Assembly: GCA_947470515.1 (NCBI GenBank)
Contig: CANITF010000006.1
Span: 1-64,000 of the forward strand
Source: Flavobacteriales bacterium
GTDB lineage: Bacteria; Bacteroidota; Bacteroidia; Flavobacteriales_D; Crocinitomicaceae
DNA: 64,000 bases
Direction of reading: 5' to 3'
Position 1 is the stretch's first letter. Each line of letters starts with the position of its first letter. The notes beneath the pieces are model-generated. The model was not told the DNA's origin. It was given only the letters and a program-made list of their open reading frames with translations, and ran no database searches. The translations under genes and the position numbers were made by a program. Below are positions 42,733-62,561 of the stretch, in pieces.

Positions 42733-42776
42733 TAAAATTGATTTTAATGCACAGCTTATAAAATGATTTATATCAT
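42733..42776 (-). promoter_or_regulatory. Crp/Fnr dyad for the nar operon
   Basis: Perfect dyad ATGATTTATATCAT (42763-42776). The element at the standard 33-bp position is the weak CAATTTTA (42733-42740). A weak core promoter would make the operon depend on the activator. Confidence 0.7.
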
Positions 42777-46939: not shown

Positions 46940-47377
46940 CTAATCAATTTTCAACCAAGCTTTTCCTTGTTGTAAGTCTGTGACCATTTCAAAAATGCTA
47001 GTTGTTTTAATCATATTTTTAAATTCGTTTTTTATATGCTTATATTTTTTGTGTGCTGGACAAGGATTTATTTCAGAGCATTCCTTCAAGCCCAATACGC
47101 ACATTGAAAAACTTGCATCACCATCTATTGCTAGAACGATATCTTCAATAGTCGTTTTCTTGAGACTTGCTGTAACACATTCAAAACCTCCCTGTGCGCC
47201 TTGGACAGAAAAGATCAGTCTGCATTTCACTAATTTTTGTAATATTTTTGCTGTGTATGGTTCAGGAGAATCAATTGAATTTGAAATTTCTTTCAGACTA
47301 ACCCTTTTTCCATCAATAGAGTTTAGTGCCACAAAGACACAGGCACGAATTCCATACTCACAAGCTTTCGAAAACAT
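46940..47377 (-). CDS. Rrf2-family (NsrR-like) repressor 1
   Basis: 145 aa. Winged helix with the Rrf2 signature (Y-G-I-R-A-C-V-F-V-A-L, P-Y-T-A-K-I-L-Q-K-L, Q-G-G-F) and three Cys at 93, 100 and 106 (C-x6-C-x5-C) that can hold an iron-sulfur cluster. NsrR and IscR have a very similar spacing. It heads the nrdD-nrdG unit and has a strong dyad in its own promoter, so autoregulation is likely. NO sensing is inferred from neighbours. Confidence 0.88.
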   Translation of the reverse strand: MFSKACEYGIRACVFVALNSIDGKRVSLKEISNSIDSPEPYTAKILQKLVKCRLIFSVQGAQGGFECVTASLKKTTIEDIVLAIDGDASFSMCVLGLKECSEINPCPAHKKYKHIKNEFKNMIKTTSIFEMVTDLQQGKAWLKID

Positions 47378-48966: not shown

Positions 48967-49410
48967 ATGTTATCGAACAAATGTAAATATGCAATTAGAG
49001 CCGTTCTATATTTGGCTTCTCAAGCCTCAGCAACTAAAATGACCCATGGAACAGAAATTGCACGTTTGTTAAAAATGCCTGTTGCGTTTACCGTAAAGAT
49101 TCTTCAAGAACTTGCTAAAAAAGACTTGATCCTTTCTAGCAAAGGACCTAAAGGAGGTTTTTATATTAATGAACAAATTAAAAAATTGCCGATAATTAAT
49201 ATTGTCAATGCAATAGATGGTGCAGATGCTTTTCATCGCTGTGGAATTGGATTACACAAATGTTCAGATGATAACCCATGTCCTTTTCATGAAACGTTCA
49301 AGGCACATCGTGAAAAATTCCTGAGTACTTTGAGTTCAACAACAATTGGTACATTTTGTATTGATTTTAATGAAAATCATTTTTTGTATGTCCAAAAAGA
49401 AGTGGTATAG
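48967..49410 (+). CDS. Rrf2-family (NsrR-like) repressor 2
   Basis: 147-aa winged-helix protein with R-A-V-L-Y-L-A-S, V-K-I-L-Q-E-L-A and K-G-G-F signatures, and cluster Cys at 92, 99 and 105 (C-x6-C-x5-C). Last gene of the scdA-DUF59-rrf2 unit. Its recognition helix differs from repressors 1 and 3, which resemble each other closely (Y-T-A-K-I-L-Q), so it may read another site. Confidence 0.87.
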   Translation: MLSNKCKYAIRAVLYLASQASATKMTHGTEIARLLKMPVAFTVKILQELAKKDLILSSKGPKGGFYINEQIKKLPIINIVNAIDGADAFHRCGIGLHKCSDDNPCPFHETFKAHREKFLSTLSSTTIGTFCIDFNENHFLYVQKEVV

Positions 49411-50646: not shown

Positions 50647-51972
50647 TCATTTAACTGAAAATGCTTTTTTCAATAAATGAATTATAAACACAAAAAAACA
50701 AAGCATCAGAATACTGCCAGAAATGCCTAAAACAATGAACCAAGTTCTTAAGCTTTCCATCATTTCACCGAAGGAACATTGATCAGGATCTAGTTGCCAA
50801 ATGCCTTTTAATATTCCGGAAACATCAAGAGAAACGAATAATACTAATAAGCTTAGTTGAGCAATCCAAAAGGAATAATTCAATAATTTATTGGGTTGAA
50901 CAGTTTGTTCATCCTTTGGAATAAGAAACATAAATGCTGCAGCAAAAAGTATCATACTATTGATCCCAATTGTTGTTCCCATGGCATGGGCAACGGTCAC
51001 ATGAGTTCCATGCGTATAAATATTAATTACAGGTATTGACATTAAAAGTGCTTGACCCATATTAATGAATACCCAAAAATCTGTTGCCATCAAAAACCGA
51101 TATGGAAAATAACTATAGTTCGATTTCATCTCTACAAGACTCTTCTTCCAATCATAAATAATTTTTACGAAGAAAAACCATTCGGTCATACTGATAAAAT
51201 ATGCGACATAGCGAATATAACTTTCTGTTGGTAAGGTATATATGTGATGCCCCCAATTGAACATCAAATTAGTTAAACCAAGAAAATACATTCCAAAGGC
51301 CAATTTGCTATATCCAATTTTACTTTCATTTTTATTTATTCGATCCATCAAATAAAATGCTGTACCATAAAGCATTTGGTTTAACGCTCCAACGATAGAA
51401 CCATTTACTTTCCATTGAATAGTCATATCCGTAACAAAATGCTCTCTGAAATAGGGGAAAATCCACAAGTAATTTTCAATAAATATGAACAAAAAGAAAA
51501 TAATCCCTGTCAACCACATCCAGACATAAACTGGCCATTTTCCTGTTTTTCTAACTGCTAAAACGAAGTTTACTAAAAACAGTATCCATGACACTAGTAT
51601 CGGTAAAGCCCAAATAGGATTAAATTCCCAATATTCTCTGCCTCCAAAATCTTCAGTGAAATAAGAATAGAAAACGCCAACTAGCGCAATAATCCACAAT
51701 ATCAATTGAATTTTTGATATAAGGATTGAAATAGGTTTTTTTGAAAGCATCCATAATCCTGAGTAGACAGAACCGGTTGCTCCTAATATAATCCAAAACA
51801 TTACCGAAGAAACGTGTAAAGGTCTCAATTTGCTTAAACCAAGGCTTTCCTTTAAAAAATCAGGCAAAACATATGTTAAACTAGATAACACACCTGCCAA
51901 CAATCCACAAAACAATAAAATCAGGGCTGTTATTAAAAACTGCTTTCCTGGATTTTTTCTATTTTCTTTCAT
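50647..51972 (-). CDS. NorB-like heme-copper oxidase subunit with altered active-site ligands
   Basis: 441 aa, about 12 helices. R-P-L-H53-V keeps one low-spin heme ligand; G-R-E-Y-W-E and G-H242-H243-I-Y match NorB. Where cNOR has W-x-V-H-L-W-V-E-G, this protein reads W-K-V-N190-G-S-I-V194-G, so the third FeB His and catalytic Glu appear replaced by Asn and Val. T-H-G-T-H-V-T-V-A-H329-A-M331 aligns with A-H-G-H, so the second low-spin heme His appears to be Met. With norC it probably forms a non-canonical NO reductase. Confidence 0.85.
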   Translation of the reverse strand: MKENRKNPGKQFLITALILLFCGLLAGVLSSLTYVLPDFLKESLGLSKLRPLHVSSVMFWIILGATGSVYSGLWMLSKKPISILISKIQLILWIIALVGVFYSYFTEDFGGREYWEFNPIWALPILVSWILFLVNFVLAVRKTGKWPVYVWMWLTGIIFFLFIFIENYLWIFPYFREHFVTDMTIQWKVNGSIVGALNQMLYGTAFYLMDRINKNESKIGYSKLAFGMYFLGLTNLMFNWGHHIYTLPTESYIRYVAYFISMTEWFFFVKIIYDWKKSLVEMKSNYSYFPYRFLMATDFWVFINMGQALLMSIPVINIYTHGTHVTVAHAMGTTIGINSMILFAAAFMFLIPKDEQTVQPNKLLNYSFWIAQLSLLVLFVSLDVSGILKGIWQLDPDQCSFGEMMESLRTWFIVLGISGSILMLCFFVFIIHLLKKAFSVK

Positions 51973-52381
51973 TTTGTTCTATCATTCCATTTTTGTGGAT
52001 ACTATAATTTCGTGGATTCGCATTGCCACTTGCATCTGTTTGTTTCAAAAATTCAATTAAAAAATTTTCTTCTGTTTTTGATAAATTAAAAGCGGGCATT
52101 TGCTTCATTCCCCCTTTAAATAAGGCTTTTAATATATCTTCATTTCCTTGGAATTTTGAATATTCGTTGGTCAAATCTGGACCGAGATATCCACCAAGAC
52201 CATATAATTGATGGCAACATTGACAGTTATATTTTTGCCAAACGAGGCGACCTTCTACAGCAGAAACTTTATTGAATTCTTGTGCTTTCAATTTTTTTAA
52301 TGGATACACATAGATGCTCAAAGAAAACATAAGAAAGGCTAAACATAAAAGGCTAAAAATATGACGTACTTTAATTTTCAT
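51959..52381 (-). CDS. norC: NorC-like membrane-anchored cytochrome c
   Basis: 140 aa: N-terminal membrane anchor (about residues 8-26), heme motif C53-Q-C-C56-H57 followed by Q-L-Y-G-L-G-G-Y-L-G-P-D-L-T-N, the classic NorC block. The Met ligand is probably M95 in M-P-A-F-N-L-S. It passes electrons to the NorB-like subunit, whose start it overlaps by 14 bases. Lies five bases after the acetyl-CoA synthetase gene. Confidence 0.9.
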   Translation of the reverse strand: MKIKVRHIFSLLCLAFLMFSLSIYVYPLKKLKAQEFNKVSAVEGRLVWQKYNCQCCHQLYGLGGYLGPDLTNEYSKFQGNEDILKALFKGGMKQMPAFNLSKTEENFLIEFLKQTDASGNANPRNYSIHKNGMIEQNERK

Positions 52382-52386
52382 GCGAA

Positions 52387-54438
52387 CTATTTTTTAATTT
52401 TTACTCGAACATCCACCGCTATCATTTGATTACCATCAGCTTTAATGGGATTTAAATCTAATTCATTAATTTCTGGTGCAATGTTTACCAAGGCGCCAAT
52501 ACGTGTTACAATATCAATGTATTTAGCTTCATTAAGAGCCTTTTTGTTTCTATATCCTTTGATAATTGGATAGCTTTTTAGTGTCTCAATCATTGATTTT
52601 ACTTCAGCACTCGACAATGGAGCAAGAGCAGCAACTGTATCTTGCAGAAGTTCTAGAAAAATCCCCCCCAAGCCACAGATAACTAAATGTCCAAAATCTC
52701 CTTGTTTTACAGCTCCGCAGTATAATTCTTCACCAGCAATCATTTCCTGCACTAAAATTCCTTTTGCTTCAGGTATTTGCATTAATTCTTTAAAAGCCAC
52801 ATTAGCTTGGGTAACATCAAGAACATTTAATATCACTCCACCAACTTCTGTTTTATGAACAGGTCCAACTACTTTCATTACAATGGGGAAACTCAATTCT
52901 TTTTCAATTGTGATTAATTCAGAAATCGTTGTAATCACTAATTGTTTTGCTAAATCTATACCAGCCGCTTCCATTAATTCTCTGCATACGTCAGCATTTA
53001 AAAAGCCATCAGACGATGAATTGATAATCGCTCTAATTGCCACAATGTCCATATCAGGTAATTTTACATTTTCGAAAAGTAATTTTTTTGATGTAAAGAC
53101 ATGCGCAAGTGCCTTTCCTAAATTAACTTCATCTGGAAAATTAACTCTGCCGTTTGATAGGAATTGTTTTATTTCATTTTCTGCATTTATTAAAGAAGGA
53201 AGTACTGGAAAAATTGGTTTTTGGCAGGTAATCATTTTTGATTCCAGCACATCATACACGTCCTTCACGTTGAAAAGTCCGGGGCTTCCGAACACAACGA
53301 CCATTCCATCTACTTTATCAAAAGTATCACAGAAATCTATTATTTCTCCGAGTTGAAAAGCAGTTCCCGTTGCAAGAAAATCAATAGGATTAGCAACTGA
53401 GGATCCAGAATTTAACTTATCTAAAAGTATATCTGTTTCAGAGGTTTCAAAAGCTGGAACGGATAATCCATTTGAAGTTAAAGCATCGGTTAGCATTACT
53501 GCTGAACCTCCGGCGTGAGTTATAATTGCAATATTTTTTCCTTTTAATTCTTTGGACTGAAAAACACCAGCCACAGCAATTAATTCATCTCGACTACTAC
53601 AATAGACGATTCCACATTTTTTAAAAAGTGCTCTAATGACAGTGTCAGACGATGCTAAAGCACCAGTGTGAGAAGAAGCAGCTCTGCCTCCTGCTTCAGA
53701 ATAACCTGATTTTATTGCTGCAATTTTACATCCTTTTTGAATTAAAGATGTGGCATGTTTCAAAAATTTATGGGGGTTCTTAATTTGCTCAAGATAGAGC
53801 AATTTTACTTTTGGACTTTTTTCTGAGTCAAATGTAAGATCCATGAATTCTAACAACTCTTCAACTCCTGTTTGTGCTGCGTTTCCAATGGAATAGATGT
53901 TTGAAAATTTCAAGCCAGTAAGCAATGCGGATTCCATTATAAAAACAGCTGTTGCCCCTGAACTTGAAATCATTTCACATCCCAATTTATCATATGAAGG
54001 AATAGGTGTTGTGAAGACTCCTTTGTACGTTTCATTTATTATTCCTGCGCAATTTGGTCCTATTAATGTCCCGTTTGCTTTATTAATTTTAGCTACAAGT
54101 TCCTTTTCAAGTTCAATTCCAATATGTCCCGCTTCGGAAAAGCCTGCAGAATATATTATAAAAGCCTTTGTGCCTTTTTTTATCAGATCGTCGACGGTTT
54201 GAATGCATTGATTTGACGGTATTGCAATTATCGCCAAATCAACATTTCCAAGTTCTTTAACATCTTTAACCCATTGGACTCCATTAATGGCAATAGGTTT
54301 ATGATTCACGGCGAATATCGTTCCTTTAAAATCACCATTTAAAAGATTACGGACAACTTTTCCACCAGGTTTACTTTCATTTTCAGAAGCACCAATGATC
54401 GCAATGCTGTTTGGAGCAATTAGTTGAGAGACTATCAT
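52387..54438 (-). CDS. Acetate/acyl-CoA ligase (ADP-forming), fused alpha-beta
   Basis: 683 aa. Residues about 1-130 are a CoA-binding domain (G-A-S-E-N-E-S-K-P-G-G-K-V), 150-450 succinyl-CoA-ligase-like domains with S-S-H-T-G-A-L-A-S-S, and 470-683 an ATP-grasp domain (P-I-V-M-K-V-V-G-P...G-G-V). The enzyme makes ATP from acyl-CoA, or activates acids. Next to tyrosine and tryptophan lyases it could harvest energy from pyruvate-derived acetyl-CoA. Located in the middle of the operon, one base after tpl-like gene. Confidence 0.9.
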   Translation of the reverse strand: MIVSQLIAPNSIAIIGASENESKPGGKVVRNLLNGDFKGTIFAVNHKPIAINGVQWVKDVKELGNVDLAIIAIPSNQCIQTVDDLIKKGTKAFIIYSAGFSEAGHIGIELEKELVAKINKANGTLIGPNCAGIINETYKGVFTTPIPSYDKLGCEMISSSGATAVFIMESALLTGLKFSNIYSIGNAAQTGVEELLEFMDLTFDSEKSPKVKLLYLEQIKNPHKFLKHATSLIQKGCKIAAIKSGYSEAGGRAASSHTGALASSDTVIRALFKKCGIVYCSSRDELIAVAGVFQSKELKGKNIAIITHAGGSAVMLTDALTSNGLSVPAFETSETDILLDKLNSGSSVANPIDFLATGTAFQLGEIIDFCDTFDKVDGMVVVFGSPGLFNVKDVYDVLESKMITCQKPIFPVLPSLINAENEIKQFLSNGRVNFPDEVNLGKALAHVFTSKKLLFENVKLPDMDIVAIRAIINSSSDGFLNADVCRELMEAAGIDLAKQLVITTISELITIEKELSFPIVMKVVGPVHKTEVGGVILNVLDVTQANVAFKELMQIPEAKGILVQEMIAGEELYCGAVKQGDFGHLVICGLGGIFLELLQDTVAALAPLSSAEVKSMIETLKSYPIIKGYRNKKALNEAKYIDIVTRIGALVNIAPEINELDLNPIKADGNQMIAVDVRVKIKK

Positions 54439-55827
54439 TTATTTTATTTTCTCAAAACGCGCTTGGAAGAATCTCAAATATTTCGGCTCATAGATCATTT
54501 TCATTCCTTTAATTTTTTTACGTCTATCATATACCATAGCTGTTGATTCAGCAACTACATCCATGTGTGCTTGCGTATAGACACGTCTTGGAATTGTAAA
54601 TCTTACTAATTCTAATTTTGGGTAATAATTTTCACCTTTGGAATTTCTGCCTGCCGAAACAATTCCTCGTTCCATTGTTCTAACCCCTGAATCTGCATAT
54701 ATTTCAGCCGCCAAAGTTTGAGCTGGAAAATCATCTTGAGACAAGTGAGGTAAAAAGGCTTTCGCATCAACAAAAATTCCATGTCCTCCTATAGGTTTTA
54801 CGATTGGTATTCCATATTCCTGCATCCTTTTTCCAAGATATTCAACTTGACCAATTCGCGCTTTTTGGTGGTAATCATCCAAACTTTCTTTGATTCCGAC
54901 GGCAATTGCTTCCATATCTCTTCCGGCAAGTCCACCATAAGTATGCAACCCTTCATAAACTACTACTAAATTTCTAGCTTCTTCATATACATCCCATTCA
55001 TTGGTTGCAAGAAAACCGCCAATGTTTACAAGCGCATCTTTCTTAGCACTCATCGTTGCACCATCAGTTAGTGAACAAATGTCGTGTACTATTTCTTTTA
55101 TTGTTTTTAATAAATATCCTTTTTCTCGTTGTTGAATAAAATATGCATTTTCAGCAACTCTGGTCATATCATGGATAATTCTAATACCATGTTGAAGGGT
55201 ATATTTTCTAAGTTCTTTCAAATTTTCCATGCTGATCGGTTGCCCACCAGCCATATTAACATTTGTTGCAATGCTCACATAAGGAATTTTATCAGCTCCG
55301 TATTTGTTTACGATCTTCTCCAATTTATTAAGATCAACATTTCCTTTAAAAGGAAATTCATTTAAAGCGTCATGTGCTTCATCAATAATAATATCTTCAA
55401 ATTTTCCACCAGCAAGCTCTTGATGCAGTCGCGTAGTTGTGAAATACATATTGCCAGGAATGACATCTCCCTTTTTTATTAAAATTTGAGAAAGAATGTT
55501 TTCAGCTCCTCGACCTTGATGGGTTGGAATTACATATTTATAGCCATAATATGTTTGTATAGCGCGCTCCATGTTGTAATAACTTTTACTTCCAGCGTAA
55601 GATTCATCACCAGTCATAAAAGCGGCCCATTGTCGATCACTCATGGCATTTGTTCCACTATCCGTTAATAGATCAATGTATACATCTTCTGATCTTAATA
55701 AAAAAGTATTGTATCCAGCCTCTTTTAATGCTTTGTTTCGTTGCGCTTTTGTTGTCATTTTTAACAGCTCAACCATTTTCATTTTATATGGTTCAGCCCA
55801 CGCTCTTTTTTCAATTTTAAGTGTCAT
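54439..55827 (-). CDS. tpl: Tyrosine phenol-lyase-like PLP enzyme
   Basis: 462-aa beta-eliminating lyase. The PLP lysine lies in M-S-A-K-K-D-A-L-V-N-I-G-G. The segment T-H-Q-G-R-G-A-E-N...N-M-Y-F-T-T-T-R and especially G-V-R-T-M-E-R-G-I-V-S-A-G-R-N match tyrosine phenol-lyase: the Met/Arg pair of M-E-R corresponds to Met379/Arg381 that bind the phenol ring in Citrobacter, where tryptophanase has Val/Ile. Predicted reaction: tyrosine to phenol, pyruvate and ammonia. Follows tnaA directly; probably a paralogue pair. Confidence 0.85.
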   Translation of the reverse strand: MTLKIEKRAWAEPYKMKMVELLKMTTKAQRNKALKEAGYNTFLLRSEDVYIDLLTDSGTNAMSDRQWAAFMTGDESYAGSKSYYNMERAIQTYYGYKYVIPTHQGRGAENILSQILIKKGDVIPGNMYFTTTRLHQELAGGKFEDIIIDEAHDALNEFPFKGNVDLNKLEKIVNKYGADKIPYVSIATNVNMAGGQPISMENLKELRKYTLQHGIRIIHDMTRVAENAYFIQQREKGYLLKTIKEIVHDICSLTDGATMSAKKDALVNIGGFLATNEWDVYEEARNLVVVYEGLHTYGGLAGRDMEAIAVGIKESLDDYHQKARIGQVEYLGKRMQEYGIPIVKPIGGHGIFVDAKAFLPHLSQDDFPAQTLAAEIYADSGVRTMERGIVSAGRNSKGENYYPKLELVRFTIPRRVYTQAHMDVVAESTAMVYDRRKKIKGMKMIYEPKYLRFFQARFEKIK

Positions 55828-55829
55828 AA

Positions 55830-57221
55830 TTATAAATTTATAGGTTCAAAATGTGCAGTAAAATGTCTTAAAAATGGCGGTTCATATGTGATTTTATACC
55901 CTTCGGCTTTCTCTGTTAACTCCAAAATATCATCAAAAACATCAAGTACAAAATCAATATGACTTTGTGTATATACTCTTCTAGGAATTGCTAAACGAAC
56001 TAATTCATTTGCTGCAGGAATCAATTCACCATTTTCGTCATATTTCCCAAACATTACACTTCCAACTTCAACACAACGAATACCTCCTTTTAAGTACAAA
56101 TCACACACTAAAGCATGTCCAGGATATTGATTTACAGGAATATTAGCATATAATTTTTTAGCATCGATGTAGACTGCATGTCCACCAATCGGCCATACTA
56201 CAGGAATTCCTTTTGCTCTTAAATGTTCGCCGAGATAAGCTGTGCTCCTTATTCTGTAATGTAAATAATCTTTATCAAACACTTCCTTTAACCCAATAGC
56301 TAATGCTTCCATATCTCTTCCGGAAAGACCTCCATATGTCGTAAAACCTTCTGAAATGATGAGCATGTTTTTGCATTTAACAGAAAGTGCTTCATCCTTA
56401 ACCGTAAGAAGACCACCCATATTTACAAGTCCATCTTTTTTAGCACTCATGATAAAGGCATCACCAAGATTTAACATTTCTTTTGCTATCTCCTCATATG
56501 TCAGATGACTATATTCTTTTTCTCGGTGATGAACGAAATAACTATTTTCAGCAATTCTACATCCATCAATAACCATTAAGACACCGTGATTATCACAAAT
56601 TTTTCTAACAGCTTTCATGTTGGCCATACTAACTGGTTGACCACCTGAAGAATTATTCGTAACAGTCATAATTACAGCGGCAATAGACACAGAACCATAT
56701 TGTTGAATCAATTCCTCCAATTTTAACAGGTCAATGTTTCCTTTAAAAGGCAAATCTATTTGGTTGTCTTTTGCTTCTTCACAAACAATATCAATAGCCA
56801 TTGCTCCGGTATATTCAATGTTTGCGCGCGTAGTATCAAAGTGCGTATTGCTGATAAATACTTTATCCTTGCCACCTAGTATACTGTACAAAATTCTTTC
56901 TGCTGCTCTACCTTGATGTGTTGGCAAGATATAAGGCATTCCAGTTAATTCCTTCACGACACTTTCTAAATGCTCCCAACTTCTCGCTCCAGCATAACTT
57001 TCATCACCCATCATAATTCCGCTCCACTGTTTATCACTCATAGCGCCTGTTCCACTATCTGTCAAAAGATCAATAAACACATCTTTTGATTTCAGAAGAA
57101 ACGTATTATAACCAGCTTCTTTAAGGGTTTTCTCTCGATAATTTTCAGTTGTAACTTTTAAAGGCTCAACCATTTTAATTTTAAATGGCTCTGTCAATGT
57201 GCGCAATCTATTTTTATCCAT
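55830..57221 (-). CDS. tnaA: Tryptophanase
   Basis: 463-aa PLP beta-eliminating lyase: tryptophan to indole, pyruvate and ammonia. PLP lysine in M-S-A-K-K-D-G-L-V-N-M-G-G. The specificity segment reads G-I-R-C-V-E-V-G-S-V-M-F-G, the tryptophanase type (V-E-I in E. coli), unlike M-E-R in the next gene. First gene of a six-gene operon ending in proline dehydrogenase. About 147 bases of leader separate it from the predicted start of transcription, with no tnaC-like Trp peptide seen. Confidence 0.88.
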   Translation of the reverse strand: MDKNRLRTLTEPFKIKMVEPLKVTTENYREKTLKEAGYNTFLLKSKDVFIDLLTDSGTGAMSDKQWSGIMMGDESYAGARSWEHLESVVKELTGMPYILPTHQGRAAERILYSILGGKDKVFISNTHFDTTRANIEYTGAMAIDIVCEEAKDNQIDLPFKGNIDLLKLEELIQQYGSVSIAAVIMTVTNNSSGGQPVSMANMKAVRKICDNHGVLMVIDGCRIAENSYFVHHREKEYSHLTYEEIAKEMLNLGDAFIMSAKKDGLVNMGGLLTVKDEALSVKCKNMLIISEGFTTYGGLSGRDMEALAIGLKEVFDKDYLHYRIRSTAYLGEHLRAKGIPVVWPIGGHAVYIDAKKLYANIPVNQYPGHALVCDLYLKGGIRCVEVGSVMFGKYDENGELIPAANELVRLAIPRRVYTQSHIDFVLDVFDDILELTEKAEGYKITYEPPFLRHFTAHFEPINL

Positions 57222-57247: not shown

Positions 57248-57263
57248 CGGATTTATATATCCG
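57248..57263. promoter_or_regulatory. Second NsrR-like dyad in the tnaA leader
   Basis: CGGATTTATATATCCG, inside the predicted transcript about 27 bases before the tnaA start codon. It matches the GGAT...ATCC core but has no -7 element at 28 bp, so it could be a roadblock or a co-operative site. Confidence 0.45.
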
Positions 57264-57371: not shown

Positions 57372-57410
57372 CAAAAGTAAAAAATAAATCTATCTCGGAT
57401 GTTTTTATCT
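57372..57410 (-). promoter_or_regulatory. NsrR-like operator and -7 element for the tnaA...norCB operon
   Basis: Dyad GGATGTTTTTATCT (57397-57410) and minus-strand -7 TACTTTTG (57372-57379), 28 bp centre to centre, identical in geometry to the site at 61745-61783. Confidence 0.7.
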
Positions 57411-57448: not shown

Positions 57449-58939
57449 TTATCCTAAATTCTTTGCTATTGCATTTGAAATTAAGAGAGCAACATCAAAT
57501 AGATTAATTATTTCAATCGAGTTGACGGATAATTTTCTAGGTTCATAGTTCTTTAAAAACTCGTGTTTCAACAAAATCAATGCACTGTTAGCTAATATAA
57601 CTTGTTTCTTTTCAGATCCAAACGAACATTTATTTGACATTATTTCCTGAATTTTTAATTTATAATTTCGATAAATCGCCTCCTTTTCTTTAACCAAAAT
57701 TATTACTTGTGTCGTTTCCGAAAAATTCAAATTGATCGAATCGATTATTTTTAACGTTTCAATTGCGGCATCATGAGCAAAAACGAGCGCTTCAAGCAGA
57801 GAATTAGACGCTAATCTGTTTTTGCCATGCAAACCGGTATTTGCACATTCGCCAATTGCGAATAAATTATTTATTGATGTTCGTCCGTTTTCATCTGCCT
57901 CTATTCCCCCACATTGATAATGAGCGGCAGGAATAATTGGCAATAACCTTTCTTTTAGGTTATACCCTTTACTTTCACAATATTCACTGATAAAAGGAAA
58001 CTGTTTTTTGAAAATATTACTGTCCAAATGTCTACAATCCAAGAAAACTTCCGATTGATTTGAACCTTTCAATTCCTCAATTATAGCTTTTGAAACAATA
58101 TCTCGAGTGGCCAATTCTCCCCTACTATCACTTTTAAAAATAAACCTTTCGGCTTTTTCATTTATGATAAAAGCACCAAAACCTCTAACTGCTTCCGAAA
58201 TCAAAAAAAGAGGATTCATCTCACTTTCCATAAATGCAGTTGGATGAAATTGGAAATAATGCATATTGCTGATTTTCGCACCAACACGATTTGCCATAGC
58301 TACACCATCTCCTGTTGCTACTGTTGGATTGGTAGTGTATTTAAAGACTTGGCCTGATCCTCCAGTTGCTAAAACTGTGATTTTTGACAAAAACACTTTA
58401 ACGAGCTTATTCTTTAAATCAAGAACTTTTGTCCCAACGATAGATTCATGATCATAAATTAAATCTATAGCACAGAAATGCGTATGAATTGTAATGTTTT
58501 TATACGTTTTAATTTTTTCGCTCAGGACTTCCTCTACTTTACTGCCTGTTTGATCTTTTGCATGAACAATTCTTTTTACTTGATGCCCACCCTCAAGTCC
58601 AAGTTCAAGATTTCCAGTTGTATCTTCACAAAATTCTACCCCATATTCAATTAATTCCTTTAATCTTTTTGGCGCTGATTCCACAACGTGTTTTACAACT
58701 TTTAGATCAGACAATCCCCCTCCTGCATCCATTGTATCTTCAATATGCTTTTCAAAAGAATCTGTCACTAAGTTTGTAACTGCAGCAATTCCACCTTGCG
58801 CTAATTCGGTATTGGAAGATGTAATCTTTTCCTTTGTCAGTAGCACAATATTCAAATCCTTTCGCTTTTCAGCAACTTTAACAGCATATGAAAGCCCAGC
58901 GATTCCAGATCCAATAATTAAAATGTCACATTTCATCAT
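57449..58939 (-). CDS. nadB: L-aspartate oxidase
   Basis: 496-aa FAD enzyme turning aspartate into iminoaspartate, the first step of NAD synthesis. FAD motif I-I-G-S-G-I-A-G-L-S-Y-A at residues 8-19; also Q-G-G-I-A-A-V near residue 48, H-P-T-A-F, and A-A-H-Y-Q-C-G-G-I with G-R-T-S-I. It can use fumarate as acceptor without oxygen. The start lies one base after the nadA stop; third gene of the unknown-nadA-nadB unit. Confidence 0.94.
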   Translation of the reverse strand: MMKCDILIIGSGIAGLSYAVKVAEKRKDLNIVLLTKEKITSSNTELAQGGIAAVTNLVTDSFEKHIEDTMDAGGGLSDLKVVKHVVESAPKRLKELIEYGVEFCEDTTGNLELGLEGGHQVKRIVHAKDQTGSKVEEVLSEKIKTYKNITIHTHFCAIDLIYDHESIVGTKVLDLKNKLVKVFLSKITVLATGGSGQVFKYTTNPTVATGDGVAMANRVGAKISNMHYFQFHPTAFMESEMNPLFLISEAVRGFGAFIINEKAERFIFKSDSRGELATRDIVSKAIIEELKGSNQSEVFLDCRHLDSNIFKKQFPFISEYCESKGYNLKERLLPIIPAAHYQCGGIEADENGRTSINNLFAIGECANTGLHGKNRLASNSLLEALVFAHDAAIETLKIIDSINLNFSETTQVIILVKEKEAIYRNYKLKIQEIMSNKCSFGSEKKQVILANSALILLKHEFLKNYEPRKLSVNSIEIINLFDVALLISNAIAKNLG

Positions 58940-58940
58940 T

Positions 58941-59894
58941 TTAGGCTGATAGATTCAACATTTTTTCGATTGGAATCATTGCTTTAGATAGTATTTCTGG
59001 CGAAATATTAACTTCTGGTGATTCTGTTTCTAAACAGTTCAATATTTTTACTAACGTATTGAGTCGCATAAAACCGCATTCGCTGCATGAGCAAGAATTC
59101 GCTTCAACTGTTGGTGCTGGAATAAAGGTTTTATTTGGCACTTCAATTTTCATACGGTGCAATATTCCAGCTTCAGTGGCTACAATGAATGTTTGTTTTG
59201 TGCTATTCTTTACATATTCAATCATTCCAGAAGTAGAGCCAATAAAATTCGCTAAGGATAGAATATGCTCTTCAGATTCAGGATGTGCAACAATGACTGC
59301 TTGAGGGTGTTTTAGTTTTAATTCTACTATTTTATCAAATGAAAACGCCTCATGAACAATACAAGCACCATCCCAAAGCACAAATTTTCGCCCAGTTATT
59401 TTTTGTAAATACTTTCCTAAATTTTTGTCAGGAGCAAAGATAATTGGCTTATCAAGTGGGATGGATTCGATTACTTTCACAGCATTTGAAGACGTACAAA
59501 CGATATCACTCATCGCCTTTATTTCAGCTGAACAATTTATATATGTTACTACTGTATGATCAGGAAAATCTTTTATAAAATTTCTAAATTTAATTGGCGG
59601 ACAAGATTCTGCCAATGAGCAACTTGCATTCGAATCTGGAATAACAACTTTTTTTGATGGATTAATTATTTTAGCCGTTTCAGCCATAAAATGTACTCCA
59701 GCAAAGACTATTAAATCCGCTTTAGTTCTAGACGCTTCAACAGACAAGCCATAACTATCTCCCACAAAATCTGCAATATTTTGAATTGCTTCTTCTTGAT
59801 AATAATGTGCTAAAATAACGGCATTTTTTTCCGCTTTTAAGTCATTGATTCTCTTTGTTATTTCCTTTATAGTCATAACATTTTCATTTTTCAA
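58941..59894 (-). CDS. nadA: Quinolinate synthase
   Basis: 317 aa. [4Fe-4S] enzyme condensing iminoaspartate with dihydroxyacetone phosphate. Motifs: A-H-Y-Y-Q near residue 26, D-S-Y-G-L-S, V-F-A-G-V-H-F-M-A-E-T-A, cluster Cys in C-S-L-A-E-S-C-P, Y-I-N-C-S-A and C-S-C-S-E-C-G-F. Its cluster is exposed to solvent and sensitive to NO and oxidants in other bacteria, which may explain placement under an NO-type operator. It overlaps the unknown 604-aa gene by four bases. Confidence 0.94.
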   Translation of the reverse strand: MKNENVMTIKEITKRINDLKAEKNAVILAHYYQEEAIQNIADFVGDSYGLSVEASRTKADLIVFAGVHFMAETAKIINPSKKVVIPDSNASCSLAESCPPIKFRNFIKDFPDHTVVTYINCSAEIKAMSDIVCTSSNAVKVIESIPLDKPIIFAPDKNLGKYLQKITGRKFVLWDGACIVHEAFSFDKIVELKLKHPQAVIVAHPESEEHILSLANFIGSTSGMIEYVKNSTKQTFIVATEAGILHRMKIEVPNKTFIPAPTVEANSCSCSECGFMRLNTLVKILNCLETESPEVNISPEILSKAMIPIEKMLNLSA

Positions 59895-61705
59895 ACAACG
59901 CTAAATCCTCTAACTTGGATCGCTTGAAGATTGTTTTTTAATTCTTCTATCTGTTCAAGTGTGTTTTCCAAAGCTTTTTTCGAAGACATTTTCAACGAAG
60001 ACAGTAATCCAGTATAATAATTTAATCCTTTTTCTAAATTTTCTTTAAATACTTGATAATACTGTTGCTGTTTTTCTGACATAACATCTAGTTGAGCATC
60101 AAGTTCTTTTTTCAGATAGTCTATATACAACTGAGCCTCGTTGATGAAAATATGTGGACGAGAAATCTTATTTAGCACATTTAATCGACCGTAAATATGA
60201 TCGACCATTTCGCTCAATTTATAGGTGCCTTTGAAATAATATGTGTTTGGCCCTGGACAAATACTTACAGCATCTAATTTATGTGACAATTCACCATCAT
60301 TTGTTAAAATCGCTGAAGCGCCTAATCCTTCACATAAACATTCCTTTTCCATAATTTTTTCGACTTCATATGCTTTTCTTAAATCAGAAAGTTCACTGTT
60401 TTTCACTTGTTCCATTTTCAACTTTTGAAATTGTCTAGAAGCTGTGCAGATAGGTTTTTCTGTAAATTCCGTATTAAACGACAAGAATTTCTTGTAGCAT
60501 GGACTTCCAGCTTTGTGTTTTTCAATTCTTTCCATTCGTTGTTCTTCAGAACTTGATCCACGGAAATTATTAAACGGCACTCCAAGAGGTGAAGAATTAC
60601 TGATATAAAAATCTTTTTTCTTTGCTGTAATTAAAGCTTTTAACGTTTCTTCATCTACATTTGTTGATTCAGGCACAAGTAAAAACGGACTACCCCAACC
60701 CGTACCATCAAGGTTGTAATATTTCATCAAAAACTTGTCTTCATCTGAAGTTCCAATTCCTCCTTGAGCAGTAATTTTCAAACTTGGGTTCAATGGCAAT
60801 ATATTTCTATTGGATTCACTCAAAGTCTTTACACAGATTTCGTATAACTCGTCATAAAGCTCTTGTCTTTTTTCTTTAAATTCTTCTAAAATTGGACCTA
60901 ATAAAAATCCATGAGTTGCAAAAGCATGTCCTCCACAATTTAAACCTGATTCGATTCTAAATTCTGAAACCCATATTCCTTTTTTAGCAAACATTTTACC
61001 TTGGATCACTGCAGAGCGATAATCACTTACTTTTAGCACTACTTTCTTTTTGATTTCACCATTCGAATCAGGATAGAAATCATCAAAATTTTCACAATAG
61101 GTAAATAGTTTTGGATTCATCCCTGCAGAAAATATGATTGAAGAAGAAAGATTACTTTCAGCATATCCTTTTAAAACACTTTTAGCATCAGAATATTCAG
61201 CGGGGAGTAATTCACCATCACCTGAATAATTTTGATTATCGAGTTTTGTCATGATATTTACATCGATTGAACCAGCTTTTATAAAAGATTTCAATTTGCT
61301 TTCTAACACTTTTTTCACTGTTAAATCCTCTGTATTTAACATTTTAAGATAAAGCGATTTTTCAAATGCACTTTCAGGTAACATTGTAAAATACTTAGTT
61401 ATATCTGAATTAGGAGAGAAATCTTCATTTTTCAACGTTGAAATTTGTTCATTCACTACGTCATTCATAAAATTTAAATACGCTTTAATTCGTTTGGAAC
61501 GACGGTCAATATCTTTAGACGAGATTGGTTCATATTTATAATTTAATCTTTTAGAATGAACTTTCCTCATTTCTTCTATCAAGTGATCTTCCATTATAGA
61601 AACAACAGATGAAATTCCAAATTTTGCAACTTTCAGTGGAGTATCTATCGTGTATCCAAGCCCCATTACTGGGATATGAAATGTGTGTGGTGTATTATTT
61701 GACAT
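59891..61705 (-). CDS. Uncharacterised 604-aa protein, NO-type operator, ahead of nadAB
   Basis: No function recognised. The N-terminus H-I-P-V-M-G-L-G-Y-T-I-D-T-P-L-K-V-A-K-F-G-I looks like the start of a TIM barrel of the nitronate monooxygenase/glutamate synthase type. A-Q-G-G-I-G-T and G-T-G-W-G-S-P-F-L-L-V-P-E follow mid-protein. Cys-rich spots G-L-N-C-G-G-H-A, S-P-C-Y-K, P-I-C-T-A, C-L-C-E-G-L-G and S-I-C-P-G-P-N could bind a cluster or flavin. The C-terminal 90 residues are helical. The first gene of an operon with nadA and nadB, and preceded by the strongest GGAT...ATCC operator. Possibly a flavin/Fe-S oxidoreductase. Confidence 0.8.
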   Translation of the reverse strand: MSNNTPHTFHIPVMGLGYTIDTPLKVAKFGISSVVSIMEDHLIEEMRKVHSKRLNYKYEPISSKDIDRRSKRIKAYLNFMNDVVNEQISTLKNEDFSPNSDITKYFTMLPESAFEKSLYLKMLNTEDLTVKKVLESKLKSFIKAGSIDVNIMTKLDNQNYSGDGELLPAEYSDAKSVLKGYAESNLSSSIIFSAGMNPKLFTYCENFDDFYPDSNGEIKKKVVLKVSDYRSAVIQGKMFAKKGIWVSEFRIESGLNCGGHAFATHGFLLGPILEEFKEKRQELYDELYEICVKTLSESNRNILPLNPSLKITAQGGIGTSDEDKFLMKYYNLDGTGWGSPFLLVPESTNVDEETLKALITAKKKDFYISNSSPLGVPFNNFRGSSSEEQRMERIEKHKAGSPCYKKFLSFNTEFTEKPICTASRQFQKLKMEQVKNSELSDLRKAYEVEKIMEKECLCEGLGASAILTNDGELSHKLDAVSICPGPNTYYFKGTYKLSEMVDHIYGRLNVLNKISRPHIFINEAQLYIDYLKKELDAQLDVMSEKQQQYYQVFKENLEKGLNYYTGLLSSLKMSSKKALENTLEQIEELKNNLQAIQVRGFSVV

Positions 61706-61744
61706 AACCTAAATTTTAATTACTATAACTTAAAGTAATGAGGG

Positions 61745-61783
61745 CAAAGATAACTATTTTTATTAACTCGGATGTTTTTATCC
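61745..61783 (-). promoter_or_regulatory. NsrR-like operator and -7 element for unknown-nadAB
   Basis: Dyad GGATGTTTTTATCC (61770-61783), -7 TATCTTTG (61745-61752), 28 bp apart. It lies in the divergent region shared with Rrf2 repressor 3. Confidence 0.75.
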
Positions 61784-61873: not shown

Positions 61874-62311
61874 ATGTTTTCAAAAGCCTGCGAATATGCC
61901 ATACGTGCATGCATCCTGATCGCAACAAAATCGATGGATGGTGAACGTGCGAGTCTCAAAGAAATATCAAAGGAGATTGATTCTCCCGAAGCCTATACAG
62001 CAAAAATTTTACAACTACTTGTAAAAGGCAACATAATTTCATCTGTGAAAGGCCCTACTGGTGGGTTTATTATTGAATATTCGCAAATAGAGGTAATCAA
62101 ATTACAGCAAATAGTTTTTGCAATTGACGGTGATAAAATCTACACTAATTGTGGATTAGGAATGAAAGCATGTTCTGAAAAACAACCATGTCCCGTGCAC
62201 AATCAATTCAAAATTGTACGAAATGGTTTACGCGAAATGTTGGAAACAACAGATTTAAAACAGCTTTGCTTTGGATTAAAAAACGGGTTGACATTTCTAA
62301 AAATAAATTAG
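61874..62311 (+). CDS. Rrf2-family (NsrR-like) repressor 3
   Basis: 145 aa, very similar to repressor 1 in its first 50 residues (M-F-S-K-A-C-E-Y-x-I-R-A-C and S-P-E-x-Y-T-A-K-I-L-Q), with cluster Cys at 93, 100 and 106. Divergent from the 604-aa gene; a possible promoter TAACTTTA at 61853-61860. Repressors 1 and 3 look like recent paralogues and probably share the GGAT...ATCC operator. Which one is the NO sensor cannot be told from sequence. Confidence 0.87.
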   Translation: MFSKACEYAIRACILIATKSMDGERASLKEISKEIDSPEAYTAKILQLLVKGNIISSVKGPTGGFIIEYSQIEVIKLQQIVFAIDGDKIYTNCGLGMKACSEKQPCPVHNQFKIVRNGLREMLETTDLKQLCFGLKNGLTFLKIN

Positions 62312-62375: not shown

Positions 62376-62561
62376 ATGTTAATTTATCCTCAACAATCAA
62401 TTCAAGAAATTATAACACAAGAAGTACAATCGCGCATAATCTTTGAAAATTATGGTATTAACATTGAAATTGATACAGAACGATCATTAATTGAAATCGC
62501 GGAAGCACGTTTTTTACAATTAGACGCTTTTATTGAAGATTTAAATTTGATGCTCAATTAG
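62376..62561 (+). CDS. Mini ScdA_N-like (DUF542) protein lacking cysteines
   Basis: A 61-aa protein whose pattern S-I-Q-E-I-I-T...R-I-I-F-E-N-Y-G-I-N-I-E-I-D...S-L-I-E-I-A resembles the N-terminal ScdA domain (T-I-G-E-M-V...V-F-R-K-F-G-L-D-F-C-C-G-G...T-L-D-K-A-C) of the ScdA in this window. The C-C-G-G motif is replaced by I-E-I-D and no Cys remains. A free-standing domain of unknown role, perhaps a regulator or binding competitor of ScdA. NsrR-like dyad upstream. Confidence 0.65.
   Translation: MLIYPQQSIQEIITQEVQSRIIFENYGINIEIDTERSLIEIAEARFLQLDAFIEDLNLMLN

Follow-up and report, generated by a model that had tools for sequence, protein, structure and literature searches.

In a 64,000-nucleotide stretch from a Flavobacteriales bacterium (GenBank assembly GCA_947470515.1, contig CANITF010000006.1, positions 1 to 64,000; hereafter, the window), a minus-strand gene at 59891-61705 heads a nadA-nadB operon and encodes a 604-residue protein that very probably has a flavoenzyme fold like that of FabX and is deployed in low-oxygen programmes. 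In the proposed explanation, the protein would be a flavin mononucleotide (FMN)-dependent dehydrogenase that forms a branch apart in the nitronate monooxygenase superfamily; the cysteine-rich C-terminal part is peculiar to it and probably holds a [4Fe-4S] cluster. Oxygen shortage would switch the protein on, through a CRP/FNR-type site in many relatives and apparently through an Rrf2 regulator in the source genome, and its job would most likely be to replace an oxygen-requiring biosynthetic step, the favoured step being unsaturated fatty acid synthesis. The chances that this explanation holds in full, oxygen-independent synthesis of unsaturated fatty acids included, are put at about even.

The 604-codon frame, opened by ATG in the list of open reading frames (ORFs), constitutes a genuine gene rather than a chance frame, because 13 relatives are 44-67% identical to its product over nearly the full length and 142 of the 395 genomes in a phylum sample match the family (source genome counted; one carrier, G388, matches by a C-terminal fragment only). 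Within the same bacterial family, 14 of 100 genomes match the protein, again with the source genome, and a scan of the species collection found family matches in at least 581 of 592 candidate stretches. The named loci discussed below are the best 80 of these stretches; Bacteroidota dominate among them (examples are Algoriphagus, Pedobacter, Pontibacter, Dyadobacter, Mucilaginibacter, and Chitinophaga), and Ignavibacteriae (L081 and L090) and Omnitrophota (L096) are represented as well. In genome G193 (contig C1, 4371167-4372471), fragments of a second, broken copy lie beside the intact gene. The original prediction, made from the letters alone, had placed the gene at 59891-61783; the 604-residue frame is indeed there, with its start codon at the 61705 side, while the longer interval takes in the operator-like site upstream. 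Its remark that no family could be named was borne out, as Pfam, NCBIfam and PHROGs returned nothing over cut-off and the nitronate monooxygenase Pfam family was absent from the matches up to E 1. Likewise, phmmer found no match in the PDB, and with the family profile the PDB gave only weak matches (best E 0.072), which fell in the helical C-terminal part and were nearly all to apolipoprotein A-I.

Conservation within the family is concentrated in a few blocks. In 103 aligned rows, which hold at least three duplicates (L100 is the window gene, L145 equals L099, and L146 equals L104), the invariant residues are N150, E252, G259, H260, Q314, G315, G316, G336, W337, S372, G485, N487 and six cysteines (C257, C403, C420, C456, C458, and C483). 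The codons of the C257-G258-G259-H260 motif occupy 60926-60937 on the minus strand, and those of the putative iron-sulfur (Fe-S) part, from C403 to C483, occupy 60257-60499 on the same strand. The conserved blocks, cysteine-rich spots and A-Q-G-G-I-G-T stretch pointed out earlier are thus real features of the family. Within that stretch, G318 is invariant in an alignment of 54 rows (53 of the 80 named loci and the window); among the 13 relatives, position 317 is Ile or Val and the residue before the Gln is mostly Ala and sometimes Val.

The nearest known relative was suggested by the predicted structure. An AlphaFold2 model built from 54 family sequences (mean predicted local distance difference test score, pLDDT, 90.2; predicted template modelling score, pTM, 0.90) was compared with solved structures in Foldseek, and the top five matches were all to Helicobacter pylori FabX; PfaD, FabK, and a nitronate monooxygenase came next. 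On a DALI-like scale, FabX reaches Z 27.0-28.3 with 322-338 residues aligned (best fit: Z 28.3, 333 of 363 residues, with a TIM barrel of the nitronate monooxygenase type), other families reach at most 23.2 (PfaD/FabK), the NADH:quinone reductase PA1024 scores 22.2, and true nitronate monooxygenases score about 20. The match to FabX, at about 19-20% identity in the structural alignment, stops near residue 507 and leaves the helical tail 508-604 outside. The protein is therefore predicted to be a TIM-barrel enzyme that uses a flavin and whose C-terminal part, rich in cysteines, possibly carries an Fe-S cluster, in agreement with the TIM-barrel-like start and the flavin or Fe-S oxidoreductase guessed from the letters, the latter at the level of prediction. 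A clear match to a characterized family, which was to count against a new function, has thus been found in part, since the predicted fold is that of the superfamily of FabX, PfaD, FabK, and nitronate monooxygenase.

FabX is described in PMC8626469 as an acyl-acyl carrier protein (acyl-ACP) dehydrogenase/isomerase that employs FMN and a [4Fe-4S] cluster, with O2 as the acceptor; the same paper assigns roles to its residues, including the catalytic His182 in a GGH motif and the cluster ligands C300, C304, C308 and C320, and counts homologs at more than 50% identity. When FabX is aligned position-specifically with the family at the loosest gap setting, the score exceeds those of 100 of 100 shuffles (z 5.0). 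This alignment pairs FabX E175, G180, H182, G220 and G221 with E252, G258, H260, G315 and G316, and T243, S273, C300, C304 and C320 with S339, S372, C403, C420 and C456; C308 is left unpaired and N99 falls on D173. The counterpart of the catalytic histidine, H260, is among the invariant residues. For the C-terminal part alone, none of 300 shuffles reaches the alignment score, although by a small margin (89.4 vs 86.8). In hhalign, a pooled profile of 31 sequences (6 FabX and 25 FabX-like proteins) matches the family profile with probability 95.8 and E 7.9e-9, the separate profiles being weak (E 0.0012 for the 6 FabX and 0.00075 for the 25 FabX-like sequences), whereas a FabK-type profile is not significant (E 0.06; it holds 12 sequences only, which makes the contrast with the pooled 31 uneven). 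Read by eye, the pooled-profile alignment places C403 and C420 opposite FabX C304 and C320, and N99 opposite N150. The two alignments thus disagree on which cysteines correspond to the cluster ligands. One arrangement suggested by eye would put C257 and C483 near the flavin and leave C403, C420, C456 and C458 to hold the cluster; C483 is not placed beside FabX T340 in either alignment. R230, K237, K241 and K242, invariant or nearly so in the 54 rows, fall in the region that corresponds to the basic helix with which FabX binds acyl-ACP (K152, R160, and R164) and may be its counterparts, again by eye only.

For many relatives, the gene appears to be part of a low-oxygen programme. Upstream sites were counted in 76 of the 80 named loci and the window, L039, L042, L093 and L096 being left out for contig ends and uncertain starts. 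The CRP/FNR-type palindrome TGAYN4RTCA precedes the gene in 56 of the 76 relatives, with 1.14 expected from shuffles that kept base composition only, and lies mostly 60-130 bases before the start codon; three control patterns occur 1, 0 and 3 times in the 77 sequences, and 84 of 1057 other ORFs of the named loci carry the palindrome. Further relatives have it in 11 of 46 cases (0.95 expected; 12 with other start choices). The window gene itself has no TGAYN4RTCA upstream. Within 10 kb of the gene, 43 of the 80 loci contain at least one low-oxygen respiratory, Tna/Tpl or CRP/kinase gene: histidine kinases of one cluster (23 loci; the member checked has PAS domains), a response regulator whose DNA-binding part is of CRP type (22), a HemN-type radical-SAM protein (16), a fused cbb3 oxidase subunit (12), NosZ (8), NorC-like (8) and NorB-like (7) proteins. 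Tna/Tpl genes and small CRP genes were also counted. The cluster names HemN, NorB, NorC and part of Tna/Tpl are taken from representatives and presumably apply to the other members. The neighboring CRP-type genes suggest oxygen-responsive regulators that act on TGAYN4RTCA.

In the window, the 604-codon gene is followed on the same strand by nadA (quinolinate synthase, 58941-59894; over the TIGR00550 and NF006878 cut-offs and the only PF02445 match in the genome) and nadB (L-aspartate oxidase, 57449-58939; best model TIGR00551, 450.1 bits, just under the cut-off of 452.75). The four-base overlap with nadA described in the original prediction holds if nadA starts at TTG and disappears with the in-frame ATG 18 bases downstream, at 59876. 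The same gene order occurs in L004, L027, L045 and L103, and in L042 nadA is followed by the start of a nadB-like frame at the contig end; the gap to nadA is 6 bases in L004, 15-18 in L027, L042 and L045, and about 73 in L103. Looser associations are found in L102 (nadA about 600 bases downstream), L101 (nadB tail to tail) and L020 (both upstream within 2.4 kb). The tie to nadA-nadB seen in the window thus recurs in five loci, which answers the earlier caution that homologs might never be linked to nad or nitric oxide (NO) genes. The source genome also encodes 3-hydroxyanthranilate dioxygenase (3-HAO), over NCBIfam cut-offs, and has a partial match to tryptophan dioxygenase that passes the Pfam cut-off; on this evidence it can probably make quinolinate by the kynurenine route, which depends on oxygen. 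Aspartate oxidase, for its part, is not tied to O2 as its acceptor. Given that the genome encodes the oxygen-dependent 3-HAO as well, nadA-nadB in an island of oxygen-limitation genes is best read as an O2-independent bypass, and the whole operon is read as a set of oxygen-free replacements.

For the lipid part of this set, H260 and FMN would oxidize a medium-chain acyl-ACP; the resulting 2-enoyl form would isomerize to the cis-3 form and give rise to unsaturated chains without O2-dependent desaturases. The role in unsaturated fatty acid synthesis is judged the most likely one by analogy, the hint at the substrate coming from FabX-type enzymes, as cited for NGO1024 of Neisseria gonorrhoeae. 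The FA_desaturase family requires O2, and the source genome has four matches to it, so the 604-residue enzyme may supply unsaturated chains at low oxygen. Across the phylum sample, desaturases occur in 111 of 142 carriers of the family and in 116 of 253 other genomes (p 2.6e-10, a statistic that ignores lineage). FabX is present in 5 of the 395 genomes and a FabX-like match (E below 1e-20) in 82, in families f16 and f18; 25 of the FabX-like proteins were extracted (L154-L178). The 604-residue family co-occurs with neither type in any genome, while 31 co-occurrences would be expected if they were independent. As all 82 genomes with the FabX-like match belong to just two families, this exclusion is only a hint.

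Several observations weigh against the explanation. Neither desaturase family searched was found in 23 of the 142 carriers, and the protein is therefore not simply a backup for desaturases; the mutual exclusion with FabX rests on few lineages, with kinship ignored. TGAYN4RTCA is missing in 20 of the 76 named relatives and 35 of the 46 further ones, the low-oxygen neighbors listed above are all absent within 10 kb in 37 of the 80 loci, and a search for fatty-acid genes near the gene, limited to two crude motifs, showed none. H. pylori FabX itself needs O2. At two stricter gap settings, the position-specific alignment to FabX gives no signal (z 1.4 and 1.7, with some shuffles scoring higher), and hhalign against FabX as a single sequence is not significant (44 columns, probability 3.2). 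The disagreement of the two alignments over the Fe-S ligands and the counterpart of N99 points the same way. FabK and FabX profiles match each other at E 4.3e-47, far more closely than the 604-residue family matches FabX, which makes the family a much more distant branch than FabK. Clear sequence similarity to FabX is lacking, given the 19-20% identity and the silent phmmer search of the PDB, and for this reason the protein is not filed as FabX; we conclude that it forms a branch of its own within the superfamily, with FabX as its closest match by predicted fold. Class III ribonucleotide reductase is not associated with the family either (11 of 142 carriers vs 17 of 253 others, Fisher p 0.69). 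Strict anaerobiosis had been considered as an explanation and was dropped on this result.

Other functions can be envisaged for such a fold. A FabX/PfaD-type flavoenzyme of the same low-oxygen programme could act on another acyl thioester; it might, for example, be the enoyl reductase or dehydrogenase of some special lipid or metabolite rather than work on bulk unsaturated fatty acids. The reductases PfaD and FabK come next after FabX in the fold list, and both the large sequence distance to FabX and the missing counterpart of C308 in the position-specific alignment would suit such an enzyme; it is nevertheless unlikely, as FabX leads the list by about 5 Z units and no lipid or polyketide genes were recognized among the clustered neighbors, most of which are without annotation. 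A flavin-dependent NAD(P)H or quinone oxidoreductase with a role in anaerobic respiration or in redox balance would fit the frequent cbb3 oxidase, NosZ and NorC/NorB-like genes nearby, and PA1024 shares the fold. This appears quite improbable, because PA1024 scores about 6 Z units below FabX and the extra cysteine-rich part is more FabX-like.

The original prediction favored a specific nitrosative-stress function, such as removal of a nitrated metabolite, or protection of NadA. Nitronate monooxygenases do belong to the superfamily, the island holds NO-linked genes (the repair protein RIC, NorC/NorB-like, and Rrf2), and the operator-like site is shared with the tryptophanase-type operon. True nitronate monooxygenases, however, rank below FabX, PfaD and FabK, RIC-type genes lie within 10 kb in only 5 of the 80 loci, and CRP/FNR-type sites are the commoner ones upstream (56 of 76), so a nitrosative-stress function finds no specific support and is given a very small chance; protection of NadA finds no support either. 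A partnership with NadA or NadB, for instance as an electron acceptor for NadB without O2, could account for the gene order recurring in L004, L027, L045 and L103 and for the nadA and nadB-like start in L042; with nadA within 10 kb in only 4 of the 80 loci and other low-oxygen genes adjoining elsewhere, it is the least credible of these options. The nitrosative-stress reading thus gives way to oxygen limitation, which is the commoner theme, and the FabX-like replacement of an oxygen-requiring step is retained as the preferred explanation.

The island comprises narG, class III ribonucleotide reductase, RIC, NorC/NorB-like genes, tyrosine phenol-lyase and a tryptophanase-type paralog. Preceded by a copy of the CGGAT site, a tandem of a tryptophanase-type gene and a tyrosine phenol-lyase gene that passes the TIGR02618 cut-off runs on, within 50647-57221, into NorC/NorB-like genes and what we take, from its domains, to be an acyl-CoA synthetase of the ADP-forming type; the run is an amino-acid breakdown set with respiratory genes. 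Several TGAYN4RTCA sites lie among the respiratory genes at 29856-52427, including those at 42764 and 42914, ahead of cytochrome and nar genes, and one at 52427, ahead of the NorC-like gene; the island may therefore be subject to CRP/FNR-type control as well.

The window gene itself is apparently under a candidate Rrf2 regulator. An operator-like site, CGGATN6ATCC, was found by exact-pattern search at 61769-61783 (CGGATGTTTTTATCC), 63 bases before the start codon and facing a divergent Rrf2-family gene at 61874-62311 on the plus strand (over the PF02082 and TIGR00738 cut-offs). A motif search found a palindromic copy at 57248-57263, before the tryptophanase-type gene, and there are near-copies at 57395 and 62329; the latter precedes a 61-residue ORF without a Pfam family (62376-62561). 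Genome-wide, CGGATN6ATCC gives 9 hits, corresponding to 8 sites, two of them in the window island, and the reversed control gives 2 hits; in the window, the degenerate motif is no commoner than chance (17 matches vs a shuffle mean of 15.3). The palindrome GGATN6ATCC precedes the gene in 3 of 77 sequences, namely L069, L086 and the window (0.12 expected), and in none of the 46 further relatives, while L129, the same gene as L004, shows an imperfect copy by eye. In L004, a Rrf2 gene 82.6% identical to that at 61874 occupies the same place. Three Rrf2 regulators lie within 16 kb (46940-47377, 48967-49410, and 61874-62311), all matching at superfamily level only; none reaches the NsrR or IscR cut-offs (the NsrR model requires 182 bits, against 21 for the gene at 61874 and 28.2 and 38.9 for the others). 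The repeat reported as a NO-type operator therefore exists, but its NO type finds no backing in these models. NO control of the window operon is plausible and may be a local variant.

Bacteroidota that have O2-dependent desaturases and make NAD through the kynurenine route still need membranes and NAD without oxygen, and a single gene matched in 142 of 395 genomes would, if the explanation is correct, offer a specific, testable answer for the lipid part. We know of no published answer to how such Bacteroidota make lipids once oxygen is gone, and neither a description of the family nor an answer for the lipid part was found in the open-licence papers searched. The family would further bring a new arrangement of cysteines into the FabX/PfaD superfamily, with a bearing on the acceptor that replaces O2, stated in PMC11300592 as unknown for NGO1024. 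More tentatively, and with the odds somewhat against it, it might constitute a third FabX-type branch that makes unsaturated fatty acids without O2 across much of the phylum, induced through CRP/FNR-type control as oxygen falls, passing electrons via a different set of cysteines, the six invariant ones, to an acceptor other than O2, and joined here with nadA-nadB in an "oxygen-replacement" operon that would exchange the O2-dependent synthesis of lipids and NAD for routes free of O2.

Among known systems, H. pylori FabX (PDB IDs: 7e1q and 9lt5) is the best fold match and shares the positions of the FMN site and the catalytic histidine as well as a cysteine-rich C-terminal part. It has 363 residues rather than 604, the match leaves the tail 508-604 uncovered, and the cysteine pattern of the 604-residue family differs, including a CxC and a cysteine before GGH. 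The enoyl reductases PfaD and FabK share the fold (Z up to 23.2), but fit less well than FabX. The FabX-like proteins of about 420 residues from families f16 and f18 (L154-L178) come from the same phylum and share the FabX-type barrel, and the one sequence inspected has extra C-terminal cysteines with a CxC; unlike the 604-residue family, they are 32-36% identical to FabX and detectable by BLAST. NGO1024 of N. gonorrhoeae, likened to the 604-residue protein by description only, is 2-nitropropane dioxygenase-like and induced without oxygen, and is cited as about 36% identical to the FabX that came out of the screen in question.

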